Of a stretch of 64,000 bases of DNA, positions 26,032 through 55,797 are shown one piece after another. The DNA is from Exiguobacterium mexicanum. GTDB lineage: Bacteria > Bacillota > Bacilli > Exiguobacteriales > Exiguobacteriaceae. Position 1 is the stretch's first letter; the number at the start of each line of letters is the position of its first letter. Position numbers and translations under genes: made by a program. The notes under the pieces are model-generated. The model saw only the letters and a program-made list of their open reading frames with translations, ran no database searches and was not told the DNA's origin. Where the stretch lies: assembly GCF_005960665.1 (NCBI RefSeq), contig NZ_CP040675.1, forward strand, positions 1 through 64,000, given 5' to 3'.

Positions 26032-26922
26032 TCATACATTTTGTGTAAGCATATGAGCAGCTGTTTCACGCATATCTTGTAGGTCAGATATCTCTGCGAA
26101 TTCAGCTACAGTTATTGCGCTGGTTGTTAACAACTCAATTATATGCTCATCCATTCTTGGCCATGTTCTTCCGCCTGCATTGTCGTAAGCATCGAGTAAC
26201 TTTGTCAAACCATCCTTACCAAACAGTAATAGATGTGATAGAAAATCCACAGATGTGTCCGCAATACTAATTTCTGTCCAATCTATCAAACCAGAGACCT
26301 CAAAATTCTTATTTATTAATATGTGGCCAGGGTGTAAATCCCCGTGGCTTACACCTACATGCGATGGCCATAGCGAATCATTCGCCAACCATTCTTGCCA
26401 ACGCTCCCATAGCTCTGAATTCACATGATACTTCTGTCTCACCTTCTCCATCCGTATCTTCATTGAACTGTTTAAATCTCTAGCATATAGAGTTTTGATA
26501 CCGATTTCTTTGAAGTGTCGATGTGGTAATGTGTGTAGTTCTGCCAACACTTTACCTAATGACTGATAGTAAGATTGTGGTGTATTCTCTTTGTCAAAAC
26601 TCCAGATGTAATCTTGTTGCTCTACATCAATTGTTGCAACCGGAACACCATCTAATTGCTTATACGCAATTAGTTCATCATCAAAAATTGACCAATTTGG
26701 AACTTGAAAACTCACATGTTCTTCCATAATTTCTAGTGCCCCCTTTTCTTTCAAGGCGCTCCTCATCGAATCTAATCTTCGAGGAATTCTTAGTATCCAC
26801 TTGCTACCAAGCGTATCTTTTGCATAAGCAACTTGAAAATCAACACCCGATTCATTTACCACAATGCTATTCTCTAACACATCTAATCCTTTATTTTTTG
26901 CAAGCCGTTTAAATTCGTTCAT
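26032..26922 (-). CDS. mph: Macrolide 2'-phosphotransferase
   Basis: 296-residue cytoplasmic kinase that would inactivate macrolides by phosphorylating the desosamine 2'-hydroxyl. The catalytic loop is HGDLHPGHILIN (His at about 193) and the DFG-equivalent is GLIDWTE. ATG 26922 follows GGAGG; the TTG start 15 bases earlier overlaps that site. The exact Mph class cannot be assigned from memory, although the AT-rich Gram-positive style is compatible with Mph(C)-like or Bacillales chromosomal types. It is preceded by a leader peptide and an intrinsic terminator, so induction by transcription attenuation is likely. Confidence 0.92.
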   Translation of the reverse strand: MNEFKRLAKNKGLDVLENSIVVNESGVDFQVAYAKDTLGSKWILRIPRRLDSMRSALKEKGALEIMEEHVSFQVPNWSIFDDELIAYKQLDGVPVATIDVEQQDYIWSFDKENTPQSYYQSLGKVLAELHTLPHRHFKEIGIKTLYARDLNSSMKIRMEKVRQKYHVNSELWERWQEWLANDSLWPSHVGVSHGDLHPGHILINKNFEVSGLIDWTEISIADTSVDFLSHLLLFGKDGLTKLLDAYDNAGGRTWPRMDEHIIELLTTSAITVAEFAEISDLQDMRETAAHMLTQNV

Positions 26923-27030
26923 GATTTGTTCCTCCAATTTTTATGTTGTGCGATAAGCAAGTGAAATGTATGCATTTTTAATACTTTTTCATTTCAATCT
27001 TTTCTAATTAGACTTAACTAAATGAAGTCA

Positions 27031-35291: not shown

Positions 35292-35613
35292 GAGGAGTGT
35301 ATTTAGTGGTGAAAAAAGTAAGATATTTTTAGTGATGGTAAAGTAAAAGCAAGTATATGTAATAAGAAGATATACTAAGCTGATACTTCATTTGGGCAAT
35401 ATGAGCCCCTATCCTTAATAAAGATAGTGAATTAATAGGTATTCACATAGCTGATAAATCTTTCGATAATTAAGAAGTAAAATTAAATAAATAGTTTGTT
35501 GAATATTTAATCTTGTGTAAAGGTAATAATATATGTATAAAGGTTTTATCATTTAAAATTAGGGGTATTAATAATGTGTTATACAGATATTATATAATAA
35601 AGGAGTAATGTGT
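35292..35613. other. AT-rich spacer with possible gene remnant
   Basis: 322 AT-rich bases between the UvrA-like and dehydrogenase genes. GAGGAG near 35292 precedes a very short frame, and a frame near 35328-35380 reads SDGKVKASICNKKIY, perhaps a relic. No complete gene is seen. AAGGAG at 35600-35605 serves the dehydrogenase. Confidence 0.45.
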
Positions 35614-36765
35614 ATGAAGGCTGTAACATTTCAAGGTAAAAAGAAAATGAAAGTAAAAAAAGTTGCAGATCCAAAGATTATTGAACCAACTGACGCAATT
35701 ATTAAGATTACTGCTTCAGGTATTTGTGGATCAGATTTACATTTATATCATCAAGGCGATATGTTTATGGATAAAGATTTTGTTATCGGACATGAACCAA
35801 TGGGGATTGTTGAAGAAGTTGGTAAAGAAGTTAAGAATCTAAAAAAAGGTGATCGTGTCGTTATTCCTTTTAATATTGGTTGTGGCGATTGTTTTTACTG
35901 TAATAACCAAATGGAATCACAATGTGATCAATCTAATGAAGAACCTGCAAACTGGAAGATGGATAACGGTGCGTTATTTGGATTTGGAAAAATGCATGGG
36001 AATTTTTGGGGTGGTCAAGCTGAATATTTAAGAGTTCCATATGCTGATTTTTCTTCTTTTGTTGTGCCAGATAGTGATTTAAAAGATGAACAAGTATTAT
36101 TTTTATCTGATGTAGTACCTACAGCTTATTGGAGTGTCGAACATGCAGGTGTGAAGGCTGGGGATACTGTTATTGTATTAGGATGTGGTCCTATAGGTTT
36201 AATGGCACAAAAATTTGCGAAACTAAAAGGTGCCGAACGTGTTATAGCAATCGATAATGTCGAACATAGACTAGAGCATGCTAAAAAATACAATGGTGTT
36301 GAAGTTTATAATTTCGATAAAGAAAAAGAAATTGGTAAGTTATTGAAAGAAAAAACTAGTGGTGGTGCTGATGTAGTTATTGACTGTGTTGGTTTTGATG
36401 GCGCACAATCAAGTCCAGAACCAAAACTTTCAAAAACATCTCAACAAAGAGGAACAATTAGTCCGATTATTACAGCCGCTGAATCAGTCCGTAAATTTGG
36501 TACAATTCAACTGACTGGAATTTATGGTACACCAGCTGATAACTTTCCACTTGATTTAATATTTAATAGAAATGTTCGTTTAACAACTGGTCAGGCACCA
36601 GTTATTCATTTAATGCCTAAATTATATGAAATGATTAAAGATGAAGTATTTGATCCTACTGAAATTATCACACATACTTTTCCTTTAGAAAAAGCCGATG
36701 AGGCTTATAAAGTATTTGATGAAAAACGAGATAATAATATTAAAGTCGTATTTAAACCGGAGTAA
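35614..36765 (+). CDS. Zinc-dependent alcohol dehydrogenase, formaldehyde dehydrogenase-like
   Basis: 383 residues from ATG 35614 (AGGAG eight bases upstream). Catalytic zinc region CGSDLHLY and GHEPMGIV; structural zinc cysteines in CGDCFYCNNQMESQC; Rossmann motif VLGCGPIGLMAQ near 190. The family is MDR-type dehydrogenases of the glutathione-independent formaldehyde dehydrogenase-like branch. It shares the plasmid with a full formaldehyde oxidation module 10 kb away, so aldehyde or formaldehyde turnover is attractive, but substrate is not fixed by sequence. AT-rich, staphylococcal in style. Confidence 0.9.
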   Translation: MKAVTFQGKKKMKVKKVADPKIIEPTDAIIKITASGICGSDLHLYHQGDMFMDKDFVIGHEPMGIVEEVGKEVKNLKKGDRVVIPFNIGCGDCFYCNNQMESQCDQSNEEPANWKMDNGALFGFGKMHGNFWGGQAEYLRVPYADFSSFVVPDSDLKDEQVLFLSDVVPTAYWSVEHAGVKAGDTVIVLGCGPIGLMAQKFAKLKGAERVIAIDNVEHRLEHAKKYNGVEVYNFDKEKEIGKLLKEKTSGGADVVIDCVGFDGAQSSPEPKLSKTSQQRGTISPIITAAESVRKFGTIQLTGIYGTPADNFPLDLIFNRNVRLTTGQAPVIHLMPKLYEMIKDEVFDPTEIITHTFPLEKADEAYKVFDEKRDNNIKVVFKPE

Positions 36766-40111: not shown

Positions 40112-41551
40112 TCAATAGTCCAATGAAAAATGTACCGGTTCGTCCACTGACACTATTGACGGATTGACGTTCGAGTAGACGCGGGGCCGCCTACCTTCGA
40201 TGGTAATCCTCGTGATGGCACCGCGTTCGACAAATAAATGCAATGAGCTCACTTCAGACACAATTGATTTGAATACAAGGACCGCTATGAGGTGTAGTCT
40301 GATACATTCCAGGGTGACATGCTGATCAAGCAAATCCGGGATTAACCGATTGGACACCTCATAGTCGGATGGATTCCCGTAAATGAGTGTTTCCGAATGA
40401 TCCATTCTGACATGTCTTGGAACTTCTTTGTTGAATAGATAGTGATCGATTCTCAGCTTAGCGATTTCATCGGGTTTAATACCATTGACTGTCATTTCAC
40501 TAAACATATGACTGCCATGTCTGTCTTCACTCGAGACCAGCTTGAGGTTGATTGTTTTTTCACCCCCGACCACTTCCACATTCACCTCGGCCACGCGGAC
40601 ATATTCAGCCGTATCTTCAATCGCGAAAGGTTGCTCAGTTTTCCACATCTGCTTGAGCACCTCCTCGACCCCTCTCGAGTTGTCTTCGGCCTTCAAGATC
40701 AAGCTGTATGCCTTGTCAGAACTGTTGTAGCGATAGGAGAAGTAACGTGCGCTCGAACTTCCCAATAGAAACCAGTCTCCAGAATTGTCGATCACCCGTT
40801 GTCCACCGTCAAAGAGTGGTGACAAATTCGACTCGGCCTGTCTCGTCTTTACATTCTTGATGATGACAGGTGGACCGGAGAGCGTGCTGTTTAAGACAGG
40901 ATGTTGATTCTCGAATTCTTTCGAGAGAGCCCGGCTGACGTAAGCATAGAGCGTGTAGATATCAATCTCCCCGCTCGGGTTCGCCGCCCCACCTTCTAGG
41001 CCACGGATCAAATGATCTGTGAAGGCTCCATGCCCGTTTCGATCCCAAGCAAACTGATTTTCCGTGCACGCTGCGATGACGAACTTACCGAACCCTTTAA
41101 TTTCAAGCCCTCTCTCCATCAGATTGTCGATTGATCGCATGAGCGCACCGCTATGACACGTATCAAAAAAGCTCAAGACTGTGCGGGCCTTTGTTTGATC
41201 GATATGGTCTCTGACATCGGACATGTTGATACTGGTGTCACCTATGGCATGAATACCTGCATCATATGGAATGAAATACGCATTGGTTTGACTGAATCCC
41301 CCGTGGCCTGCCCAGTAGAGAAATAAGACATCATTTGGAGACGCATCTCCAAAAAAACTATGTAATGCATGATCTAACATTGACTTGGTGGTCAAATTCC
41401 CATATAAAATCTGGACGTCAGATTTATCGAATACGGCGGGCTCTTCTGTCAATAATCGATTGATTTCTCTTACGTCGTTTAACGTATTCGGAAGAGCGGA
41501 TATCTCATGGTCACGTTGCTCATTGACTGCAATTAATATAGCTTTATACAA
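40112..41551 (-). CDS. Caspase-like cysteine protease (peptidase C14)
   Basis: 479 residues. The N-terminal caspase domain (1-225) shows YWAGHGG (His83) and SFFDTCHSG (Cys132), the catalytic dyad, and the core strands ILIAVN and VLFLYW. The C-terminal 240 residues are a beta-rich region of unknown type. No signal peptide or membrane segment is present. Bacterial caspase-like proteases often work as suicide effectors in defence systems, here perhaps with the downstream helical partner. Short upstream region contains AT-rich promoter-like sequence near 41570-41600. Confidence 0.88.
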   Translation of the reverse strand: MYKAILIAVNEQRDHEISALPNTLNDVREINRLLTEEPAVFDKSDVQILYGNLTTKSMLDHALHSFFGDASPNDVLFLYWAGHGGFSQTNAYFIPYDAGIHAIGDTSINMSDVRDHIDQTKARTVLSFFDTCHSGALMRSIDNLMERGLEIKGFGKFVIAACTENQFAWDRNGHGAFTDHLIRGLEGGAANPSGEIDIYTLYAYVSRALSKEFENQHPVLNSTLSGPPVIIKNVKTRQAESNLSPLFDGGQRVIDNSGDWFLLGSSSARYFSYRYNSSDKAYSLILKAEDNSRGVEEVLKQMWKTEQPFAIEDTAEYVRVAEVNVEVVGGEKTINLKLVSSEDRHGSHMFSEMTVNGIKPDEIAKLRIDHYLFNKEVPRHVRMDHSETLIYGNPSDYEVSNRLIPDLLDQHVTLECIRLHLIAVLVFKSIVSEVSSLHLFVERGAITRITIEGRRPRVYSNVNPSIVSVDEPVHFSLDY

Positions 41552-45949: not shown

Positions 45950-45987
45950 AGCGGATTTCATTTTACTGAAATCCGCTTTATTTTATT
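45950..45987 (+). terminator. Terminator hairpin at IS1182 right border
   Basis: AGCGGATTTC (45950-45959) and GAAATCCGCT (45968-45977) form a perfect stem followed by TTATTTTATT. It may end hxlR on the minus strand or be half of the original insertion target. Confidence 0.75.
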
Positions 45988-46012
45988 CAGCTATTTTTAA
46001 ATACCTACTAAC

Positions 46013-46366
46013 TTAGTTGTTTTCTATTTGCTGATCCAAGTTTTGCTCGATGTATTCTTTGCCCCATTCGTACATGGAATCAAGAATTGGAATAAGGCTT
46101 CTTCCTTGTTCGGTAAGTGAGTACTCCACTTTCGGCGGAACCACAGGGTATACTTCCCGGTGGACAATCAAATGATCTTCAAGTTCACGCAATTGATTCA
46201 CGAGCATCCGTTGCGTGATGCCTGGCATAAGACTTTTTAATTCCCCAAAACGTTTAGTTCCTTCTTTTCCTAAATGCCATAGCACTAGCATTTTCCACTT
46301 TCCTCCGATGATGGAAAGTGTCAGCTCTTTTTCACAATTAAAAACTTTCTCTCCTAAATTAGGCAT
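46013..46366 (-). CDS. hxlR: HxlR-family transcriptional regulator
   Basis: 117-residue winged-helix regulator of the HxlR type: [40 protein letters not shown], then [17 protein letters not shown]. In Bacillus subtilis HxlR activates hxlAB in response to formaldehyde, and here hxlA and hxlB lie 3 kb away. GGAAGG precedes ATG 46366. The region upstream contains the same element found before hxlA and zwf, suggesting autoregulation or activation of the neighbouring broken oxidoreductase gene. Confidence 0.92.
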
Positions 46367-46399
46367 CTATTTTCTTTCCTTCCTTGTTATATTTCTATC

Positions 46400-46441
46400 G
46401 TATACTTTTCGATACTATGTGATAAAAAAGTCAGTACTATA
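46400..46441 (+). promoter_or_regulatory. HxlR-type operator, copy 1
   Basis: GTATACTTTTCGATACTATG followed by TGATAAAAAAGTCAGTACTA aligns with the elements before hxlA and zwf (shared pattern GTATACTTTT, TATGTG, AAAGT, GTACT at the same spacing). It lies between hxlR and the Gfo/Idh/MocA pseudogene. Confidence 0.7.
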
Positions 46442-46560
46442 ATTAATGTAACTTACTAATTGTACTAGATATAGAATGGTTAGTAAATTTTTTTAGCATT
46501 GGAATAATGTCTTTGCAATTGTGGGCGATAATGCAATAAAAACAGAAAAGAGGATAAAAA

Positions 46561-47547
46561 ATGATACGAATCGGCATAGTGGGTACTAATTGGATTACAG
46601 AAAGATTGCTTGAAGCGGCAAAAGAGATTGAGAATTTTAAATTAGCAGCCGTTTATTCCCGAACGTTGGAAAGAGCAGAGGAATTTGCCAGTCAATAAGG
46701 AATAACTAAAATTTTTACTGACTTGGAAGAAATGGCAGTCAGCGATGAAATCGATGCGGTTTATATTGCCACACCCAACTCATTCCATGCTGACCAAGTC
46801 GTCTTGTTTTTTAAAAACTCCAAACATGTATTATGTGAAAAACCGATGGCTGCCAATGCAGCAGAAGCAGCGAAAATGATTCAAGAAGCGAAAGATCATA
46901 ATGTGCTGCTTATGGAAGCGATGAAATCTACGTTGCTTCCAAACTTTAAGGCCATTCAAAATAATCTGCACAAAATCGGCCCTATCCGCAGATACTTTGC
47001 TAGCTATTGCCAGTACTCATCGCGTTATGATGCATACAAAAAAGGAACAGTATTAAATGTATTTAATCCAAATTTTGCGAACGGTTCATTGATGGATCTG
47101 GGCACCTACTGTTTATACCCGCTCATTTTACTGTTCGGCGAACCAAAAGAAATAAAGGCCACAGGTCTTATCCTGGATTGCGGTATAGATGGCGAAGGAA
47201 GTGTCCTATTGAAATATGATGACAAAGATGCGGTTATCATTTATTCAAAAATCACAAATTCCACTTTACCAAGCGAAATCCAAGGGGAAAAAGGAATTAT
47301 GGTGATTGATAAAATACATTCAGCCGAAAAAGTGGACATTCATTACAACGATGGCACTGTTGAATCAGTGACAGTAGGACAACCTCAGCCCGCTATGTAT
47401 TATGAAGTGAAAGAGTTTATCGATTTAATCAGCCAAAAGAAAACGGAGTCACTTGTTAATTCGTTTGAAAACTCCTATACCACCATGTGCGTAATGGATA
47501 AAGTCCGCCAAGAAATCGGCCTGTCCTATCCAAGTGATTCCAAGTAA
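46561..47547 (+). pseudogene. Gfo/Idh/MocA-family oxidoreductase with internal stop
   Basis: The frame begins MIRIGIVGTNWITERLLEAA (NAD-binding), runs to FASQ, meets TAA at 46696-46698 and continues in the same frame with GITKIFTDLEEMAVSDEIDA and then the complete catalytic domain (SKHVLCEKPMA, LMDLGTYCLYPL) to 47547. The homologous residue at the stop is usually Lys or Arg before Tyr/Gly, so this is a nonsense mutation. A later ATG at 46723 could yield 274 residues lacking the cofactor-binding start. Probably non-functional. The family oxidises sugars or related compounds. Confidence 0.85.
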
Positions 47548-47562
47548 ACGGTCTTCAATTGA

Positions 47563-48414
47563 TCAGGCCGTCGGAAGCGAATCAGAATTTTTTTCTTCTA
47601 TATAATTGGAAGTATTCACTGGCTCTAAAATAAACTTTTCTAATACGTGAAGCACCCCTTCTTCATTGTTCGTAAAGGTCGTATAATCAGCCATAGCTTT
47701 CACTTCCTTTACGGCATTTCCCATTGCTATACCGAGACCGGCTGTCTCAATAAGTTCGATGTCATTATAGTTGTCACCAATACCGATTATTTCTGAACGG
47801 TCTATACCAAGTTTTTTCGCTAAGCATAATAGGGCACTACCTTTGTTTGCCTCGGGATGGGTGATTTCAAGGTAGTGTTTTTTTGATTTTGCGATGTGAG
47901 CATACTTGCCGAATAAGGTTTGCAATTCATTTTGTAAGTAATCGAGGACGATTGGTTCTTCGATAAAAAGTAGTTTTGTCACGCCTTTTTGGGCAAGCTT
48001 GATGAGATTGGGCTCTATCCGATAGGGCACTTTAACTGCTTCAGAATAAGCAATCAGCTTGTCATTTTCTACGGCACTGTAGAGAATATCATCTTGGTAT
48101 ATTTGTAGATGTAATTTTTTCTCACGAGAAATTTCGATTAACTTTTGTGCAATATCGGGAGGAACAGTGCGCTCATATATTACTTCTTTTTCATTAACAT
48201 CCTTGATCAATGCACCTTGATAAGTGATGAGCGGTACATTTATACCCAACTGCAGGGCAATGAGTTTCGCAGAGGAAAACATGCGGCCCGTAGCAATCGT
48301 AACAATTGTCCCCGCTTCCACCGCTTTTTTAATAGCGGTTACTGTATTTGGTGAAATCATTAAATCGTCTGTGAGCAATGTCCCATCGAGATCGATCGCG
48401 ACCAATTTATACAT
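47563..48414 (-). CDS. Cof-type HAD phosphatase
   Basis: 283 residues with the HAD motifs DLDGTLLTDD (8-17), TIATGR, and GIGDNYNDIELIETAGLGIA. The Cof (type IIB) cap domain lies between them. Such enzymes dephosphorylate sugar phosphates and flavin or cofactor phosphates. It is convergent with the broken oxidoreductase gene and lies 60 bases after the cyclase-family gene, so the two may share a transcript. A link with sugar phosphates of the RuMP cycle is possible. Confidence 0.92.
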   Translation of the reverse strand: MYKLVAIDLDGTLLTDDLMISPNTVTAIKKAVEAGTIVTIATGRMFSSAKLIALQLGINVPLITYQGALIKDVNEKEVIYERTVPPDIAQKLIEISREKKLHLQIYQDDILYSAVENDKLIAYSEAVKVPYRIEPNLIKLAQKGVTKLLFIEEPIVLDYLQNELQTLFGKYAHIAKSKKHYLEITHPEANKGSALLCLAKKLGIDRSEIIGIGDNYNDIELIETAGLGIAMGNAVKEVKAMADYTTFTNNEEGVLHVLEKFILEPVNTSNYIEEKNSDSLPTA

Positions 48415-48474
48415 AGGCTCTCTCCTTACAATTATGTTTTATCTTTCATGGAAAAATGATTGAAACAGAAAAAT

Positions 48475-49092
48475 TCAACTTAATCCTTCAAACAACAATA
48501 CTCGCGCAGGTGAAGCCTCCGTACCTACTAATTTCAAAGGCGCGGCAACCATAAAGTATTGTCCTTGCTCCACTTCCTTCAATCTCAGGCCCTCTATGAT
48601 GATGATGTCATTTGCAAATAAGGTTTTATGCGTCGGATGCCCTTCTTGGCTTCTTTCAATTCCAAGCGCATCTATTCCAACCCCGCGAATCCCTAACTCA
48701 GCAAGATAGCTTGCTCCATCTTTTGCCAGATAGACAAAATCAAAATTAAACTTTTCCTCAAACGAGTTTTTCGTTTTTAATAAAATAAAATCTCCTTTTT
48801 GAAGCTTGAATCCTTCTAAGTCCGTTTTTGAAATTCCGTTCTTTACTGCCGTCAAATCGAGAACTTGACAAGGCCCTACAAGACTGTCCAGCGAAAGCGA
48901 TTCGAATGTCTCTCCATCCACATTCATATGAAGCGGCGCATCGATATGCGTTCCGGTGTGCACATCCAGATCCAGCCGCGTTTCCGTAACATAGCCGTTT
49001 GTCTGCTGATTGATTTTTGGCTGTTTTTCCGGTTTGTCCTTGTAAACGGTCATGCCTTCATAGATCGCCCCTGTTACATCATACATTTTCAT
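48475..49092 (-). CDS. Cyclase-family (kynurenine formamidase-like) hydrolase
   Basis: 205 residues from ATG 49092, nine bases after GGAGGG; a longer reading frame upstream lacks a ribosome site. HTGTHIDAP at about 45-53 is the metal-binding HxGxHxDxP motif of the family, which includes arylformamidases and cyclases. GVGIDALGIE and HKTLFANDIIIIEGL are also typical. Substrate unknown; amide or lactone hydrolysis is typical, so a lactonase-like role beside the pentose phosphate genes is conceivable but unsupported. Confidence 0.88.
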   Translation of the reverse strand: MKMYDVTGAIYEGMTVYKDKPEKQPKINQQTNGYVTETRLDLDVHTGTHIDAPLHMNVDGETFESLSLDSLVGPCQVLDLTAVKNGISKTDLEGFKLQKGDFILLKTKNSFEEKFNFDFVYLAKDGASYLAELGIRGVGIDALGIERSQEGHPTHKTLFANDIIIIEGLRLKEVEQGQYFMVAAPLKLVGTEASPARVLLFEGLS

Positions 49093-49215
49093 GTAATCCA
49101 ACCCTCCATTAGTAATATTGTCTTCAATGATACCTTCACCTTCGCATGCCATTTATACAGTTGTCCAATGAAAATACTTTGGTGCAAAAAAGTTCAAGCT
49201 TGATAAACAATTAGA

Positions 49216-49255
49216 AATAAGCTTGAGCTTAAAAAATCTTAAACTCAAGCTTATT
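49216..49255 (-). terminator. Terminator after hxlA-hxlB
   Basis: AATAAGCTTGAG (49216-49227) and CTCAAGCTTATT (49244-49255) form a perfect 12-bp stem, with more pairing inside, followed on the minus strand by TTTCT. It separates hxlAB from the cyclase-family gene. Confidence 0.8.
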
Positions 49256-49262
49256 CGTTGTT

Positions 49263-49817
49263 CTATTCTAAATTCGCATGTCTGCCATACATGACATCGG
49301 ATTTGAGTCCCTTTTTATCCATGAATCTCAAAATCACCGCGTCATAAAACACAAGAAGCGACTGTTCAAACAATGATCCCATCGGTTGAATCGATTTGCC
49401 ACTAGTGCCCTCCCCTTTTGCTTGTGCCGGTATTTCAATTCGAATATCCGCCAGTTTGCCTATTGTAGACTCAGGGTTTGTAGTAACAGCCACTATGGTT
49501 GCACCGATGCTTTTGGCTTTCTTCGTCATGGCTGCGAGGCTTTGGGTCTCCCCGGAACCAGAACCGACAATGAAAATATCATCGACTTCCAGGTTCGGTG
49601 TCACCGTTTCTCCAACCACATACGCATCCAGGCCTACGTGCATCATACGCATCACAAATGCCTTAGCCATAAAGCCGGATCGGCCCCCGCCTGCCACAAA
49701 TATTTTCTTTGCACGCAGGATGCCGTCCACTGCCTTTTCGGCTTCCTCATCATCAATGAGAGCAGTGGTCCGCTTCAATTCAGCCAGTATTTCGTCTGTA
49801 TAGCCCGCCGTGTTCAT
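49263..49817 (-). CDS. hxlB: 6-phospho-3-hexuloisomerase (PHI)
   Basis: 184-residue SIS-domain isomerase that turns hexulose 6-phosphate into fructose 6-phosphate. GGGRSGFMAKAFVMRMMHVG and VGSGSGETQSL are the sugar-phosphate-binding loops; the end (MGSLFEQSLLVFYDAVILRF) matches HxlB closely. Start ATG 49817 was chosen by comparison with HxlB; GTG 49832 overlaps the hxlA stop. It directly follows hxlA and would be translationally linked to it. Confidence 0.95.
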   Translation of the reverse strand: MNTAGYTDEILAELKRTTALIDDEEAEKAVDGILRAKKIFVAGGGRSGFMAKAFVMRMMHVGLDAYVVGETVTPNLEVDDIFIVGSGSGETQSLAAMTKKAKSIGATIVAVTTNPESTIGKLADIRIEIPAQAKGEGTSGKSIQPMGSLFEQSLLVFYDAVILRFMDKKGLKSDVMYGRHANLE

Positions 49818-49818
49818 A

Positions 49819-50460
49819 TTACGCCGTGACACTTTCTTTCATCATCTTTTGAATTTTTTCCGCTTCCGCGCCCTTGTTCTCTTTGCTTGTAATTCCACCG
49901 CCGACAATGATTAAATCCGGTTGTGCTTTAATGACTTCCGGCAATGTCTCCAGTTTGATGCCGCCTGCAATAGCAGTTTTGGCATTTTTTACGACGCTTT
50001 TGATTGTACGAAGATCTTCGAACGAATCTTTCCCTTCCGCTTGCAGATCGTAGCCTGTGTGGACACAGATATAATCCGCGCCAAGTTCATCAAGCTCTGC
50101 GGCCCGTGTTTTGATATCTTTTACGGCGATCATATCCACCAGGATTTTCTTACCTTGTTTTTTCGCTTCTTCAACTGCGCCCTTGATGGATGAGTCTTCT
50201 GCCTGAGCAAGAATCGTAACAATATCTGCTCCTGCAGCAGCAGCATTTGATACTTCATAAGCTGCAGCGTCCATAATTTTCACATCTGCAAGAACTTCCA
50301 GGTTAGGGAAAGCTGCTTTTATTTCTGCGACAGCTTTAAGACCTTCTTTATTGATGACTGGCGTCCCGATTTCAACGATGTCGATAAACGCCTCTACTTC
50401 TTTAACCACTTCGATTGCTTGTGGAATGTTTACTAAGTCTAAAGCTAATTGTAATTTCAT
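49819..50460 (-). CDS. hxlA: 3-hexulose-6-phosphate synthase (HPS)
   Basis: 213-residue TIM-barrel enzyme of the OMP decarboxylase superfamily that condenses formaldehyde with ribulose 5-phosphate. LQLALDLV at the start and the LADVKIMDAA motif (Asp59, Lys61, Asp64) are diagnostic, as is VDMIAVKD. AAGGAG precedes ATG 50460. First gene of hxlAB, with an HxlR-type element and a spaced promoter upstream. Confidence 0.96.
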   Translation of the reverse strand: MKLQLALDLVNIPQAIEVVKEVEAFIDIVEIGTPVINKEGLKAVAEIKAAFPNLEVLADVKIMDAAAYEVSNAAAAGADIVTILAQAEDSSIKGAVEEAKKQGKKILVDMIAVKDIKTRAAELDELGADYICVHTGYDLQAEGKDSFEDLRTIKSVVKNAKTAIAGGIKLETLPEVIKAQPDLIIVGGGITSKENKGAEAEKIQKMMKESVTA

Positions 50461-50499
50461 GTGTCATTCTCCTTGTTGTCGTATTTTTGATTCTGACTT

Positions 50500-50569
50500 A
50501 GTGTAAAACCTACAAGCATTGTTGTGAAGTACGCACTTTAATTTCACATACTGACAAAAAGTATACTGT
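50500..50569 (-). promoter_or_regulatory. hxlA promoter with HxlR-type operator, copy 2
   Basis: On the minus strand, the element ACAGTATACTTTTTGTCAGT (from 50569) continues through AAAGTGCGTACTT and leads into -35 TTCACA (50528-50523), a 17-base spacer and -10 TACACT (50505-50500). An operator placed immediately upstream of the -35 fits activation by HxlR. Confidence 0.75.
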
Positions 50570-50937
50570 CGGCGGCTATCACAATGGTAATCTGTTTAAT
50601 TTCATATATATGCATTTATTTCTTAATGTATCTGATTAACTTTATAGTTTTATTAAGACCGCTTTAAGATAATCCAATTACTTTTTCCTTTTCACTAAAC
50701 ACTCAACACGACTTATCCAGTTTGAAAATCAATTACTTGTTTCTTATCCGAATGAGCTATTGTAACTTTTTTGCAATGAATTACTTTCGATAATGGGATT
50801 TAACCTTTGTTATTTCTCCCTCAAAAAATCCTAAATTCCTTAACTTCTAAAAAATATTTCATGATAGAGATATTTTGTATATCAGATAAGTTTTTAAGAA
50901 CCGGATCCCTGGTGAATTTCCTCCTCTTTCCCTTGCT

Positions 50938-51007
50938 ACAGTATACTTTTTGTAAGTATATGTTTATAAAGTGCGTACTTACATAAAAAACTTTGAGTCA
51001 TTATACT
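50938..51007 (+). promoter_or_regulatory. zwf promoter with HxlR-type operator, copy 3
   Basis: ACAGTATACTTTTTGTAAGT (from 50938) continues through AAAGTGCGTACTT and into -35 TTACAT (50979-50984), a 17-base spacer and -10 TATACT (51002-51007). Architecture and sequence are nearly the same as at hxlA, so the two divergent operons should respond together. Confidence 0.78.
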
Positions 51008-51072
51008 AAAACCTGTTGCGATTATCAGTCATGCCAGAGACACATGATTTTAAGAGTAGGAGGTTTTAACAT

Positions 51073-52590
51073 ATGCACACCGAGAATCTGCTTGAAGAAT
51101 TTAATTTTCAAAATGATTTATTTGAATTTAAACAAGAACGGCCCCTGCAAAACATGACATTTGTCTTGTTCGGAGCAACAGGAGATTTAGCACAACGCAA
51201 GTTATTTCCTGCTCTGTACAATCTATACCTGGACGGGAAGTTACCCGAAACCATCTCGATCGTTGGTTTGGGGAGAAACTATTGTTCAGATGAAATATTT
51301 CAGTCTAAAGTGGAAAAAGCACTTTACGCATATTCCAGAAGGTCCATTCACGCTTCATCTTTGCCAGCTTTTTTAGAGAAATTTCGGTATTGCAGCTTTG
51401 ATGCGACAGAAAAAGAGTCTTACTACAAACTGCGCGAACTTATTGAAAACAGGGAAAACGAGTTGGGTATTCCTCAAAATCGGCTGTTTTACTTGTCTGT
51501 GGCCCCCAGCTTAATTGATATTATCACGTCCCACCTTAGTAAAAGCGGAATCAGTCAAAACAACGGGTGGAAACGCCTCATTGTTGAAAAACCGTTTGGA
51601 AACAGCCTAAAAACAGCCAGAAAATTAAATGAGAATTTGAGCAACGTGTTCCGTGAAGAGGAGATCTACCGAATTGATCACTACCTAGGGAAACCTATGG
51701 TACAAAAACTAAGAACCTTGATCTTGGCGAATCCGATCTTGGAATCTTTGTTGAATCATAAACAAATTTCAAATGTCCAAATTACAGCAAGTGAGACTGT
51801 AGGTGTAGAAAACCGGGCTGATTATTATGATAAGGCAGGAGCCATCCGGGATATGGTTCAAAACCACCTTCTTCAGTTGGTCACAATGACAGCTGTCTAT
51901 CTTTCGGATAACTTCATGGAAAATAAGGGCCGGGTGAAAAAGACAGACATTATTGCCTCTCTCCAACCCATCCGGAAAGAAAAAGCATACCAAAGCGTTG
52001 TCCGCGGCCAGTATGGTCCGGGAGAGGTTCAGGGCAACCCCGTCATTGGCTACAAAGAGGAGCCGGGGGTTAATGATTCCTCAACGAATGATACTTTTTT
52101 TGCGGCACGCCTATCTATCAACCATCCATCCTGGCAGGGGATTCCCTTTTATATACGAACAGGCAAACGGATGAAACTGAAGTCGACACAGATTGTCATT
52201 GAATTTGAAAACAAGGTGATGGATTTAAATACACAGTTAGGAAGCTCTCCAAATTTAATGATTCTTGAAATTAGTCCAAATGAAAGCATTTCGTTGCGCG
52301 TAAATTTAAAAGATCCATCCAGCACTCGATACAAACCTGTTTGGATTGATTTCTCAACCAGCTCAGAAAATCAGCCGGAAGCATATGAACTTCTGCTCTA
52401 TGATGCACTGCGCGGCGATTCAACGTTCTTTGCCGATTGGAGAGAAGTGGAACTATCATGGAAGTGGATTCAACCACTATTAGAAGCTTACCAAGAGGAG
52501 TTATTGCCTTTATATTCTTATCCAGCCGGTTCAACAGGTCCAGAAATGGCAAATGAGTTATTGCTGACGGATCAATCGAAGTGGTGGTAA
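51073..52590 (+). CDS. zwf: Glucose-6-phosphate 1-dehydrogenase
   Basis: 505 residues. Cofactor site GATGDLAQRKLFPALYNLY (about 34-52), active-site RIDHYLGK (about 199-206) and EKPFG. It oxidises glucose 6-phosphate to the lactone with NADP+. GTAGGAGG precedes ATG 51073. First gene of zwf-pgi-gnd, a set that together with hxlAB regenerates ribulose 5-phosphate while releasing formaldehyde carbon as CO2. Confidence 0.96.
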   Translation: MHTENLLEEFNFQNDLFEFKQERPLQNMTFVLFGATGDLAQRKLFPALYNLYLDGKLPETISIVGLGRNYCSDEIFQSKVEKALYAYSRRSIHASSLPAFLEKFRYCSFDATEKESYYKLRELIENRENELGIPQNRLFYLSVAPSLIDIITSHLSKSGISQNNGWKRLIVEKPFGNSLKTARKLNENLSNVFREEEIYRIDHYLGKPMVQKLRTLILANPILESLLNHKQISNVQITASETVGVENRADYYDKAGAIRDMVQNHLLQLVTMTAVYLSDNFMENKGRVKKTDIIASLQPIRKEKAYQSVVRGQYGPGEVQGNPVIGYKEEPGVNDSSTNDTFFAARLSINHPSWQGIPFYIRTGKRMKLKSTQIVIEFENKVMDLNTQLGSSPNLMILEISPNESISLRVNLKDPSSTRYKPVWIDFSTSSENQPEAYELLLYDALRGDSTFFADWREVELSWKWIQPLLEAYQEELLPLYSYPAGSTGPEMANELLLTDQSKWW

Positions 52591-52642
52591 AAAATAGTTC
52601 ATTCAAAAGGAGAGAGATTACATGACCGTTTCATTTGATTTC

Positions 52643-52662
52643 ACCAATGTATACCAATGTAT
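52643..52662 (+). repeat. 10-base tandem duplication at pgi start
   Basis: ACCAATGTAT occurs twice in direct tandem. The standard start ATG 52622 (with AAAGGAGAG upstream) reads MTVSFDFTN and then stops at 52679 because of the extra ten bases. Removing one copy restores [20 protein letters not shown] in frame with pgi. Confidence 0.9.
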
Positions 52663-54005
52663 TATCGTTTATGACGAATAGCGAGTTTGAAAATATTAGC
52701 GAATTTGTCAAACAAGCGCATAACCAACTTCACCAGCAGACAGGACCGGGTTCTGACTACTTGGGGTGGATCGACTGGCCGATTAACTATGATAAAGAAG
52801 AGTTTCTCCAGGTGAAACTGGCTGCCGAAAGAATTCAGCAACAGTCAGATGCGCTGATTGTGATTGGCATCGGCGGCTCTTATCTAGGCTCCAAGGCAGC
52901 AATAGAAGCCTTATCACATACATTCCATAACCAAGTTAAAGGGAATACGGAAGTTTATTTTGCTGGACATAACATTAGCCCAACTTATATCACACATTTG
53001 CTTCAGCTACTGGAAGGGAAAGACATTTCCATCAATGTGATCTCCAAGTCCGGCACAACCACTGAACCCGCTTTAGCCTTCCGGATCTTCCGTACCCTTT
53101 TGGAAAAAAAGTATGGAAAAGAAGAAGCTAGAAATCGAATTTATGTCACAACCGACCGGAGCAAAGGTGCGCTTCGGAATCTTGCAGTTGAAGAAGGATA
53201 CGAAACATTTGTCATTCCTGATAATATCGGAGGACGATACTCCCTTTTGACTCCAGTCGGTTTACTTCCGATGGCTGTAGCCGGGCTTAATATCGACCAA
53301 GTGATGCAGGGGACAAAAGCTGCTTACCACAAATACAACAATCCCGTACTCGCTACAAACGAAAGCTACCAATATGCTGCAGTAAGGAATATTTTTTATA
53401 ATAAAGGAAAATCGATTGAACTGTTTGTAAGCTACGAGCCTGGCCTGCTTTCTACAGCAGAATGGTGGAAACAACTTTTCGGGGAAAGTGAAGGAAAAGA
53501 TGAAAAAGGACTCTTCCCCGCTTCTGTCAATTTCTCCACTGATTTACATTCAATGGGGCAGTATGTGCAGGAAGGGCGCCGTCTATTCTTTGAAACAGTT
53601 TTGCAAGTGAAGAAACCTTCCCTCGATCTTGTCATACAAGAAGATCCAGCCAATATGGATGGGTTGAACTTCTTAGCAGGAAAAACGATGGATGAAGTGA
53701 ACAAAAAAGCGGCACTTGGAACTTCCCTTGCTCATGTCGATGGAGGTGTGCCGAATCTGGTCATTGAGCTAGACGAACTCAATGAATTCACCTTTGGCGA
53801 AATGATTTATTTCTTCGAAAAAGCCTGCGCGATCAGTGGCACTTTACTCGGTGTCAATCCATTTGACCAACCAGGAGTAGAGGCATATAAAACCAATATG
53901 TTTGCATTGCTTGGCAAAGAAGGATTTGAAAAAGAAAGAGAAAAGCTGGAAAATCGGCTGTTGCCGTCTGGCAACTCACAAAACGATGAGGTGAAAATAC
54001 AATGA
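52647..54005 (+). CDS. pgi: Glucose-6-phosphate isomerase, start frameshifted
   Basis: From ATG 52647 the gene encodes 452 residues; ATG 52671 is another choice and overlaps the stop of the out-of-frame leader (52679). GPI signatures are intact: [34 protein letters not shown] and [14 protein letters not shown]. The normal N-terminus encoded from 52622 is out of frame owing to the 10-base duplication at 52643-52662. Only about nine residues are lost, and restart at an internal ATG could still give active enzyme at lower level. It converts fructose 6-phosphate to glucose 6-phosphate. Confidence 0.9.
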
Positions 54006-55414
54006 AGCAGCAAATTGGAGTCATCGGTTTAGGGGTAATGGGAAAAAACTTAGCCCTGAACATGGAGAGTAAAGGTTATTCTGTATCTGTCTATGATTAT
54101 TGGACAGACCGAATCGACGAATTAGCTGAAAAAGAAGCACAAGGAAAAAAGATTTTGGGAGCATACAGTGTTGAAGAGTTTGTCCTTTCATTGGAAACCC
54201 CCCGCAAAATCTTGTTGATGGTGAAATCTGGAGACACGACGGATTCGGTCATTGAATCCCTCCTTCCCCACCTTCAATCAGGGGACATTCTATTAGACGG
54301 AGGAAATTCGTTTTTTGAAGACACGAATAGGCGAACAGCAAAATTACAAGAAGCAGGCTTGCACTTTCTAGGCGCCGGAATTTCCGGCGGAGAAGAAGGT
54401 GCCCGCAACGGTCCTTCCATCATGCCCGGTGGACCGAAAGAAGCATATGAACAAGTCAAACCTATTCTGGAAGCAATTTCGGCAAAAGTAGATGACACTC
54501 CTTGCAGTGCCTATATGGGTCCTGATGGAGCTGGCCATTATGTAAAAATGGTTCATAATGGCATTGAATACGGCGATATGCAATTGATATCCGAAGCCTA
54601 TTTCATCATGAAACACGCGCTTGGCCTTTCTGTCCTAGAAATGTCCACTATATTCTCGGATTGGAACAAAGGGGAGCTTGACAGTTACCTTGTCGAAATT
54701 ACCGCCGATATTTTGAACAAGCGGGATGAAGATACCGGGAAGCCGCTTGTTGATCAGATTTTGGATGTGGCCGGACAGAAAGGGACTGGGAAATGGACAA
54801 GCCAAAACGCGTTGGATTTAGGTGTTTCCCTTCCAATCGTCACAGAGTCCGTTTTCGCAAGGTTTATTTCCTCGGTCAAGGAAGAACGGGTCGCGGCAAG
54901 CAAAATTCTGCAAGGCCCTGAACCGGAAAAACAGGCAGGCGACTCCCAAGAAATGATTGAAGCCATCCGCAAAGCCTTATACATGAGTAAGATTTGCTCG
55001 TATGCCCAAGGTTTTGCCCAAATGCGTGCGGCATCTGAAGAGTATGGCTGGAATATTCCTTACGGGGACGTTGCCATGATCTTCCGTGGAGGATGTATCA
55101 TCCGGGCGCAATTCCTGCAAAAGATCAAAGAAGCATTTGACGGCAATCCCGAACTGCCTAACTTATTAATTGATCCATATTTCCAGGAGATTATAGGGGA
55201 GTATCAGCATTCTCTACGAAAAGTGCTGACGCTGGCCATTCAGCAAGGAATTCCGGCGCCCGCTTTTTCAAGCGCATTGGCTTACTATGACAGCTATCGC
55301 TCTGAGACATTGCCAGCCAATTTAATCCAGGCACAGCGGGATTACTTTGGTGCCCATACGTACCAGCGTGTAGACAAAGAAGGTTTCTTCCACACCGAGT
55401 GGCAAGTAAAATAA
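54002..55414 (+). CDS. gnd: 6-phosphogluconate dehydrogenase, decarboxylating
   Basis: 470 residues. Cofactor site [15 protein letters not shown] (7-21), substrate loop [13 protein letters not shown] and catalytic [17 protein letters not shown] (Lys near 182). It releases CO2 from 6-phosphogluconate and gives ribulose 5-phosphate, the acceptor for HPS, closing the cycle. ATG 54002 overlaps the pgi stop by four bases, and GATGAGGTG upstream is its ribosome site. Confidence 0.97.
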
Positions 55415-55470
55415 CCAGAAACAATAAGTATGTAGAAGCTTGTTAGAACATCACGTAATCAGACTAAAAG

Positions 55471-55508
55471 GCCTGTTGGAAAAAGAAAGTTTTCCAGCGG
55501 GCTTTTTT
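55471..55508 (+). terminator. Terminator of zwf-pgi-gnd
   Basis: GCCTGTTGGAAAA and TTTTCCAGCGGGC pair with minor mismatches around a short loop and are followed by TTTTTT. Placed 57 bases after the gnd stop. Confidence 0.85.
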
Positions 55509-55797
55509 GAATACATTGCAGCCTCCATGCTCATTGACGCCTTCTTCAATAGATTTTAATTGTCGATAAACAATTATCTGGAATCTGGATCCTTCAGGAA
55601 AATCATCTTTTTATGTTTGAAACTTTAACTCTATGAAAAAATTCTACCGTTAAAAGGGGCGGAATCCCTAAAAGAACCAATCTGCTAAAGGGTATGCTAT
55701 TTTGATTATTTTTAAGTTGATAAACTACCGCAGATCTAAAATGATAGCACTCGCTCGATGCATTCTTACAAGAGCAAGCGAACCGGTAAATTCGGAT

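Follow-up and report, generated by a model that had tools for sequence, protein, structure and literature searches.

Gene content and the three operator elements

The stretch analysed here, referred to as the window, covers positions 1 to 64,000 of contig C3 (NZ_CP040675.1; 68,746 bases) of Exiguobacterium mexicanum. It carries hxlR (46013..46366, minus strand; PF01638, 132.9 bits), encoding a formaldehyde-responsive activator of the DUF24/MarR type, followed by gfo (46561..47547, plus strand), encoding a Gfo/Idh/MocA oxidoreductase with an in-frame TAA at 46696-46698. Further along lie hxlA (49819..50460) and hxlB (49263..49832), both on the minus strand and encoding 3-hexulose-6-phosphate synthase and 6-phospho-3-hexuloisomerase, and, on the plus strand, zwf (51073..52590), pgi (52635..54005) and gnd (54002..55414), encoding glucose-6-phosphate dehydrogenase, glucose-6-phosphate isomerase and 6-phosphogluconate dehydrogenase, respectively. 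The host genome (G000) thus encodes all five enzymes, each above the cut-off of its NCBIfam model (TIGR03128, TIGR03127, TIGR00871, NF010697 and TIGR00873, in the same order). Three 40-bp elements accompany these genes: E1 (46400..46439, plus strand) between hxlR and gfo, E2 (50527..50566, minus strand) ahead of hxlAB, and E3 (50941..50980, plus strand) ahead of zwf-pgi-gnd. Sequence comparison makes it very probable that they serve HxlR as operators, forming a formaldehyde regulon that is carried by a mobilizable plasmid and in which hxlAB and zwf-pgi-gnd would be switched jointly. The reading is supported by the operators shared among the three sites, their conservation and promoter geometry, the occurrence of the operator before zwf near hxlA, the status of this zwf as the only one in the genome, and a match to the half-site of the HxlR-DNA crystal.

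An earlier note on this DNA had described three matching elements with GTATACTTTT, TATNTG, AAAGT and GTACT blocks at equal spacing, and an ungapped alignment of the sites contains all of them. The GTATACTTTT block starts at 46400 (plus), 50566 (minus) and 50941 (plus); the note was thus exact for E1, while its other two coordinates, 50569 and 50938, take in the ACA preceding E2 and E3. Identity between the ungapped 40-mers is 30/40 for E1-E2, 29/40 for E1-E3 and 34/40 for E2-E3, the runner-up match within the window being 25/40, between E3 and its own opposite strand. A 39-base pattern with up to three mismatches finds E1, E2 and E3 only in the 2.69-Mb host genome, and nothing in the reversed control; since it was derived from the three elements themselves, it demonstrates their uniqueness and not their independence. 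A matrix was also built from 60 distinct hxlA-upstream sites of other loci, taking only sites that scored above 30 with the seed and excluding L005, L024, L025 and L104-L107, which hold the window's element or near copies. This matrix gives 64.7 to E2, 54.1 to E3 and 31.2 to E1, whereas none of 4.0 million Markov-simulated positions exceeds -16.7.

The promoters that the note had read behind two of the elements are correct: TTCACA (50528-50523), a 17-base spacer and TACACT (50505-50500) for hxlA, and TTACAT (50979-50984), again 17 bases and TATACT (51002-51007) for zwf, both -35 hexamers overlapping the final two bases of the 40-mer. E1, for which the note had mentioned none, has the same frame in the gfo direction, with a -35-like TATAAT at 46438-46443 and, at the corresponding place, a -10-like TGTACT at 46461-46466.

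Conservation of the operator and promoter geometry among relatives

Relatives were sampled as the best 80 of 295, with loci taken from titled genome records. In these 80 loci, sites above 10 bits, a limit slightly below the best null value of the zwf test (11.8), precede 78 of 82 hxlA genes, 22 of the 36 hxlA-linked zwf genes and 8 of 20 gfo matches; the loci behind the hxlA count also provided most of the matrix's training sites. No such site precedes pgi (0/26), gnd (0/12), adh (0/15), cof (0/25), cyc (0/18), hxlB (0/79) or same-strand hxlR (0/75). The operator pattern also occurs in 42/42 whole genomes, all of them selected for holding hxlA, with 0 in the reversed control.

The distance between operator and promoter is conserved to the base. 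A TANNNT -10 stands exactly at positions 62-67 of the element in 67/68 distinct hxlA sites, 21/22 zwf sites and 8/9 gfo sites. The hexamer at positions 39-44 is variable (TTCACA, TTTTAA, TTCTTT, TTACAT and others). Where the -35 at an operator's end varies but the -10 is good and fixed in place, the layout is that of an activator that contacts RNA polymerase. Because the -10 distance is fixed while the -35 varies, hxlA and zwf would be read by an activator sitting over the -35. The activation geometry that the earlier note had suggested for these two genes is therefore well supported as a sequence-level reading, by its conservation across genera, the base-fixed -10 and the half-site match described below. 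A general promoter consensus scan of the region lends no support on its own, with 10 promoter-like sites against 13.5 in shuffles.

The -10 at positions 62-67 provides a base-precise promoter rule for locating further HxlR targets. Two other genes were seen behind HxlR-type sites: an iron-containing alcohol dehydrogenase gene of Domibacillus iocasae (L194:1262-2652), a possible further member of the formaldehyde regulon, and a carbon-nitrogen hydrolase gene (L193).

HxlR and the outer arm of the operator

The HxlR of the window is identical to Bacillus subtilis HxlR (PDB 7bzd) at 80 of 106 aligned residues and has the Cys11 and Lys13 pair, both residues being conserved in 92/92 high-scoring segment pairs of relatives, near-copies included. 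According to the available text of the structural study, B. subtilis HxlR gains DNA binding upon formaldehyde and activates hxlAB, and the DNA of the HxlR-DNA crystal consists of CAGTATCCTC and then the reverse complement of that sequence (PMC7835342). The outer arm of E2, CAGTATACTT, matches this half-site at 8/10 positions, as does that of E3 (8/10), and E1 matches at 6/10; for comparison, about 0.03% of random positions in the window reach 8/10. Among distinct outer arms of relatives, 15/16 on the hxlA side match at 6-9 of 10, 5/5 on the gfo side at 6-7 and 6/11 on the zwf side at 6-8. In two genomes whose HxlR is close to that of B. subtilis (96% and 90% identical), hxlR and hxlA are divergent, and the element between them starts exactly with CAGTATCCTC. 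The half-site match therefore ties the outer arm of the operator to HxlR, and each 40-bp element probably accommodates two HxlR dimers.

The zwf arm

The zwf of the window is the only one in the host genome. More broadly, of the 38 genomes in the host family only G000 and G014 have a G6PD_N domain match, and the lack of any match in the other 36 is a notable gap in central metabolism. The window gnd is likewise the only long form in the host genome, the two other gnd-type genes being short frames of about 300 residues, and pgi has a second copy on contig C4. Of the "extra" zwf-pgi-gnd genes announced by the earlier note, only pgi deserves the term. An extra zwf is ruled out by the single zwf of the host and by its absence from 36/38 family genomes. 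Since the host has no other zwf, E3 would place a missing glucose-6-phosphate dehydrogenase, and not an additional copy, under the sensor.

Among relatives, a test of the promoter-proximal 26 bases, with the best of 2,000 random 600-base stretches as threshold, is passed by 32/36 zwf genes near hxlA versus 0/32 zwf genes elsewhere, where "elsewhere" means outside the fetched locus of the retrieved hxlA (about 10 kb on each side), so that a second hxlA may lie nearby. Two zwf fragments of G068, out of 56 zwf matches, were left unscored. The linked zwf genes of L088-L096, which are nearly identical copies, are among those keeping only the proximal half. In a tree of 69 zwf proteins, a ribulose monophosphate (RuMP) type (46 rows) and a housekeeping type (23 rows) separate with full support, and the operator is present on 34/37 linked rows, window included, versus 0/32 unlinked ones. 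Zwf-side sites with flanks of their own recur in Planococcus, Sporosarcina, Paenisporosarcina, Domibacillus and others. As judged from these sequences, the association of the operator with zwf genes near hxlA is strong when genes are counted but weak when independent evolutionary events are.

In L088-L096, near-identical hxl-zwf-gnd-pgi blocks were observed in Bacillaceae and Paenibacillus records, and a stop codon within zwf in G075 and G076, the hosts of two of them, as well as in G069 and G078. The pattern suggests a mobile unit that is both spreading and decaying.

Several observations weigh against the joint HxlR regulon. Well-supported branches of the zwf tree offer only four independent pairs, none of them opposite (p = 0.25, not significant). 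Four of the 36 linked zwf genes do not pass the proximal test: in L029 and in the second L042 copy the sites are degenerate, L072 has a zwf of the housekeeping type, and L036 scores above the threshold only when the full site is used. On the zwf side, the remaining 5/11 distinct outer arms match the half-site at merely 2-4 of 10 positions, and the operators of the two genomes with near-B. subtilis HxlR score just 15.2 and 17.3 on the matrix, whose training sites were themselves selected with a seed made of E1-E3, a mild circularity. Lastly, the 7-bladed lactonase family PF10282 has 0 matches in the host genome and is found in the B. subtilis control, which leaves the lactone step of the cycle without an assigned enzyme, the sugar-isomerase-like lactonase family not having been searched. 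6-Phosphogluconolactone can open unaided.

E1 and the hxlR/gfo promoter

E1 is located 33 bases ahead of the hxlR start codon. The likely hxlR promoter (46459..46487, minus strand) consists of a -35 TTTACT (46487-46482), a 17-base spacer and a -10 TACAAT (46464-46459) that overlaps the gfo -10, and comes from the consensus scan, whose sites are not above shuffles. The same operator is found in the hxlR/gfo intergenic regions of relatives, where a reverse-strand TATAAT occupies the place of the hxlR -10 in 9/12 aligned rows; a single -10, read in both directions, thus appears to serve hxlR and gfo alike.

The conservation of operator and -10 frame in nearly all gfo-side promoters of relatives would fit a working gfo activator site at E1, and hence a regulon with three functional arms. 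For the window this is unlikely: its gfo holds an in-frame stop, also present in L024 and absent from L025, while relatives have intact copies; its -10-like TGTACT misses the position-2 A of the relatives; and an E1-type site is retained beside hxlR in L026, L042 and L050, three loci that lack an adjacent gfo. Given its position downstream of the likely hxlR start, and given the gfo stop and the weakened gfo -10, E1 more probably serves here mainly as an autoregulatory site of hxlR. Of the three matching operator-promoters in the earlier note, three operators of one predicted HxlR regulon thus stand, but E1 is not a promoter equal to the other two.

Alternative readings

Another DUF24 paralogue, HypR- or YodB-like, could read E3 as well as or instead of HxlR, in which case zwf-pgi-gnd would answer electrophile or oxidative stress, mainly to supply reduced nicotinamide adenine dinucleotide phosphate (NADPH). 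Two findings favour this reading and count against HxlR as the sole reader of E3: the host genome holds three further clear PF01638 proteins, so that cross-talk is possible, and sites of a sister class, which have the same end block (GTATCYTTTT...AAAGTGCGTACTT), stand before redox genes in other genomes. In addition, allicin also induces the HxlR regulon in B. subtilis, according to the available text of PMC6943732. The 40-bp sister-class sites precede genes for a pirin (L198), a flavodoxin-fold, azoreductase-like reductase (L199) and a luciferase-like protein (L202), three target types backed by a Pfam scan; by eye only, they were also seen before luciferase-like genes in L200-L201 and a nitroreductase-like gene in L203. 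Assigned by their target genes only, these sites are probably operators of HypR-like DUF24 regulators, which belong to the same regulator family as HxlR (PMC6943732, available text). The sister class differs from E1-E3, however, not only in its redox targets but also in its middle block, TATACTATACCACTT, which is absent from all three elements; these have the hxlA-type middle. Furthermore, the full operator pattern occurs nowhere else in the host genome, and the zwf genes scored in relatives bear the operator only when near hxlA. A paralogue acting at E3 is thus improbable, and HxlR remains the preferred reader.

It is still less likely, indeed very unlikely, that HxlR represses at E1-E3 and that formaldehyde relieves this repression. 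The position of E1 downstream of the likely hxlR -10 would suit a repressor, but B. subtilis HxlR gains DNA binding on formaldehyde and activates its target (PMC7835342, available text), and at hxlA and zwf the variable -35 with a good, fixed -10 points to a requirement for an activator.

Finally, chance likeness of E1-E3 is ruled out by the genome-wide pattern search and by matrix null scores far below those of the elements, and a recent copying of one promoter, which the 34/40 identity of E2 and E3 might bring to mind, sits poorly with zwf-side sites that recur with their own flanks in several genera, so that the chance of either explanation is negligible.

Probable plasmid setting and transfer of the module

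Genes for a MobL relaxase, a VirD4/TraG-type coupling protein and a ParA-type ATPase lie on contig C3 and make it a probable plasmid, mobilizable or conjugative; a search of a plasmid collection returned no near match. A 9.84-kb block (45956-55795) is 98.5% identical to L025, a contig attributed to an uncultured Planococcus, whose binning, in the assembly of an uncultured isolate, is uncertain. The window zwf groups with that of L025 within a Planococcus/Planomicrobium clade (support of 97 in the Shimodaira-Hasegawa-like approximate likelihood ratio test). The near-identical block and the zwf grouping point to a recent transfer of the module between these lineages, and the presence of hxlA in just 2/19 genomes of the host genus is most simply read as transfer from Planococcaceae. 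The record L024, from Exiguobacterium sp. TNDT2, aligns from window position 46462 onward and so barely misses E1; in the same-genus genome G014, hxlR was not found at the search threshold used.

Elsewhere on the window, a macrolide 2'-phosphotransferase-like gene was seen at 26032-26937 (nearest model MphL, 486 bits for a cut-off of 612), and a caspase-like protein of the EACC1-associated type, below the curated cut-off, at 40112-41551.

Neighbouring genes

Downstream of hxlB, on the same strand, an intrinsic-terminator-like hairpin (49215..49256, minus strand) has a 19-pair stem, with a predicted energy of -22.8 kcal/mol for 49195-49262. It is followed by cyc (48475..49152, minus strand), for a putative cyclase or arylformamidase-like hydrolase (PF04199; TIGR03035 below cut-off), and by cof (47563..48414, minus strand), for a Cof-type HAD phosphatase (TIGR00099 above cut-off). 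Because of the strong hairpin between hxlB and the cyclase gene, cyc and cof may lie outside the transcript that starts at E2, unless it is extended by read-through. For a zinc alcohol dehydrogenase gene at 35608-36765, the best NCBIfam model is that of a glutathione-independent formaldehyde dehydrogenase, at 193 bits and thus under the curated cut-off; in the window, no operator pattern match was found near it.

A model for the regulon and its significance

The model that we infer from the sequence and from the work on B. subtilis HxlR covers HxlR binding, induction, the two dimers, the direction of the effect at E1 and the flux. Formaldehyde would cross-link Cys11 and Lys13 of HxlR, as known for the B. 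subtilis protein, and the activated regulator, probably as two dimers, would bind the 40-bp element at hxlA and zwf. Sitting at the variable -35, ahead of a good -10 at a fixed distance, it would recruit RNA polymerase and turn on hxlAB and zwf-pgi-gnd together. Their products could then run a dissimilatory RuMP cycle, in which formaldehyde and ribulose 5-phosphate yield fructose 6-phosphate, then glucose 6-phosphate and 6-phosphogluconate, and finally ribulose 5-phosphate again with CO2. At E1, which would lie behind the likely hxlR start (downstream of it) but upstream of gfo, bound HxlR would limit hxlR and activate gfo, a branch that appears to be decaying here.

It is also reasonably probable, with less assurance than for the regulon itself, that the whole constitutes a transferable module for burning formaldehyde: the plasmid would bring the sensor, its operators and a dedicated zwf lineage, and the host would oxidise glucose 6-phosphate by this route only as a response to formaldehyde. 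The operator would mark this lineage near hxlA across Bacilli, being missing from the zwf genes scored elsewhere. One sensor thus appears to govern both the capture and the disposal of formaldehyde, as the operator also precedes the genes that regenerate ribulose 5-phosphate and oxidise the carbon, here and in many relatives. Such an arrangement would explain how the cycle could operate in a genus lacking zwf and, as a naturally coordinated formaldehyde module, is of interest to synthetic methylotrophy.

Comparison with known systems

The reactions, Hps-Phi-Pgi-Zwf-Gnd, are those of the dissimilatory RuMP cycle of methylotrophic Bacillus and Actinobacteria, for which clustering and lateral transfer of one-carbon genes have been described (PMC5023230, PMC7511216; available text). 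Unlike in these methylotrophs, no methanol or methylamine oxidation gene was found among the ten window proteins scanned, and operators of one sensor joining the genes of the cycle are not described in the available text of the same two papers. HxlR is given as the regulator of Hps-Phi in a table of a 2022 review (PMC8879981, available text). In the literature searched, most of it screened without opening the papers, no report of HxlR operators at zwf was found, and those papers naming both HxlR and zwf of which passages were read draw no link between the two.

The closest known counterpart is the HxlR-hxlAB system of B. subtilis (PDB 7bzd, 7bze and 7bzg; PMC7835342, available text), with which the window shares an HxlR with Cys11 and Lys13, an operator whose outer arm resembles the half-site (8/10 at E2, identical before hxlA in the two genomes with near-B. 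subtilis HxlR), and hxlAB as a target. The window hxlR is not divergent from hxlA, in contrast to the two genomes with near-B. subtilis HxlR. Unlike the B. subtilis system, the window has one of its elements, E1, at the hxlR/gfo promoter, and a second operator before zwf-pgi-gnd, on a plasmid-like contig.

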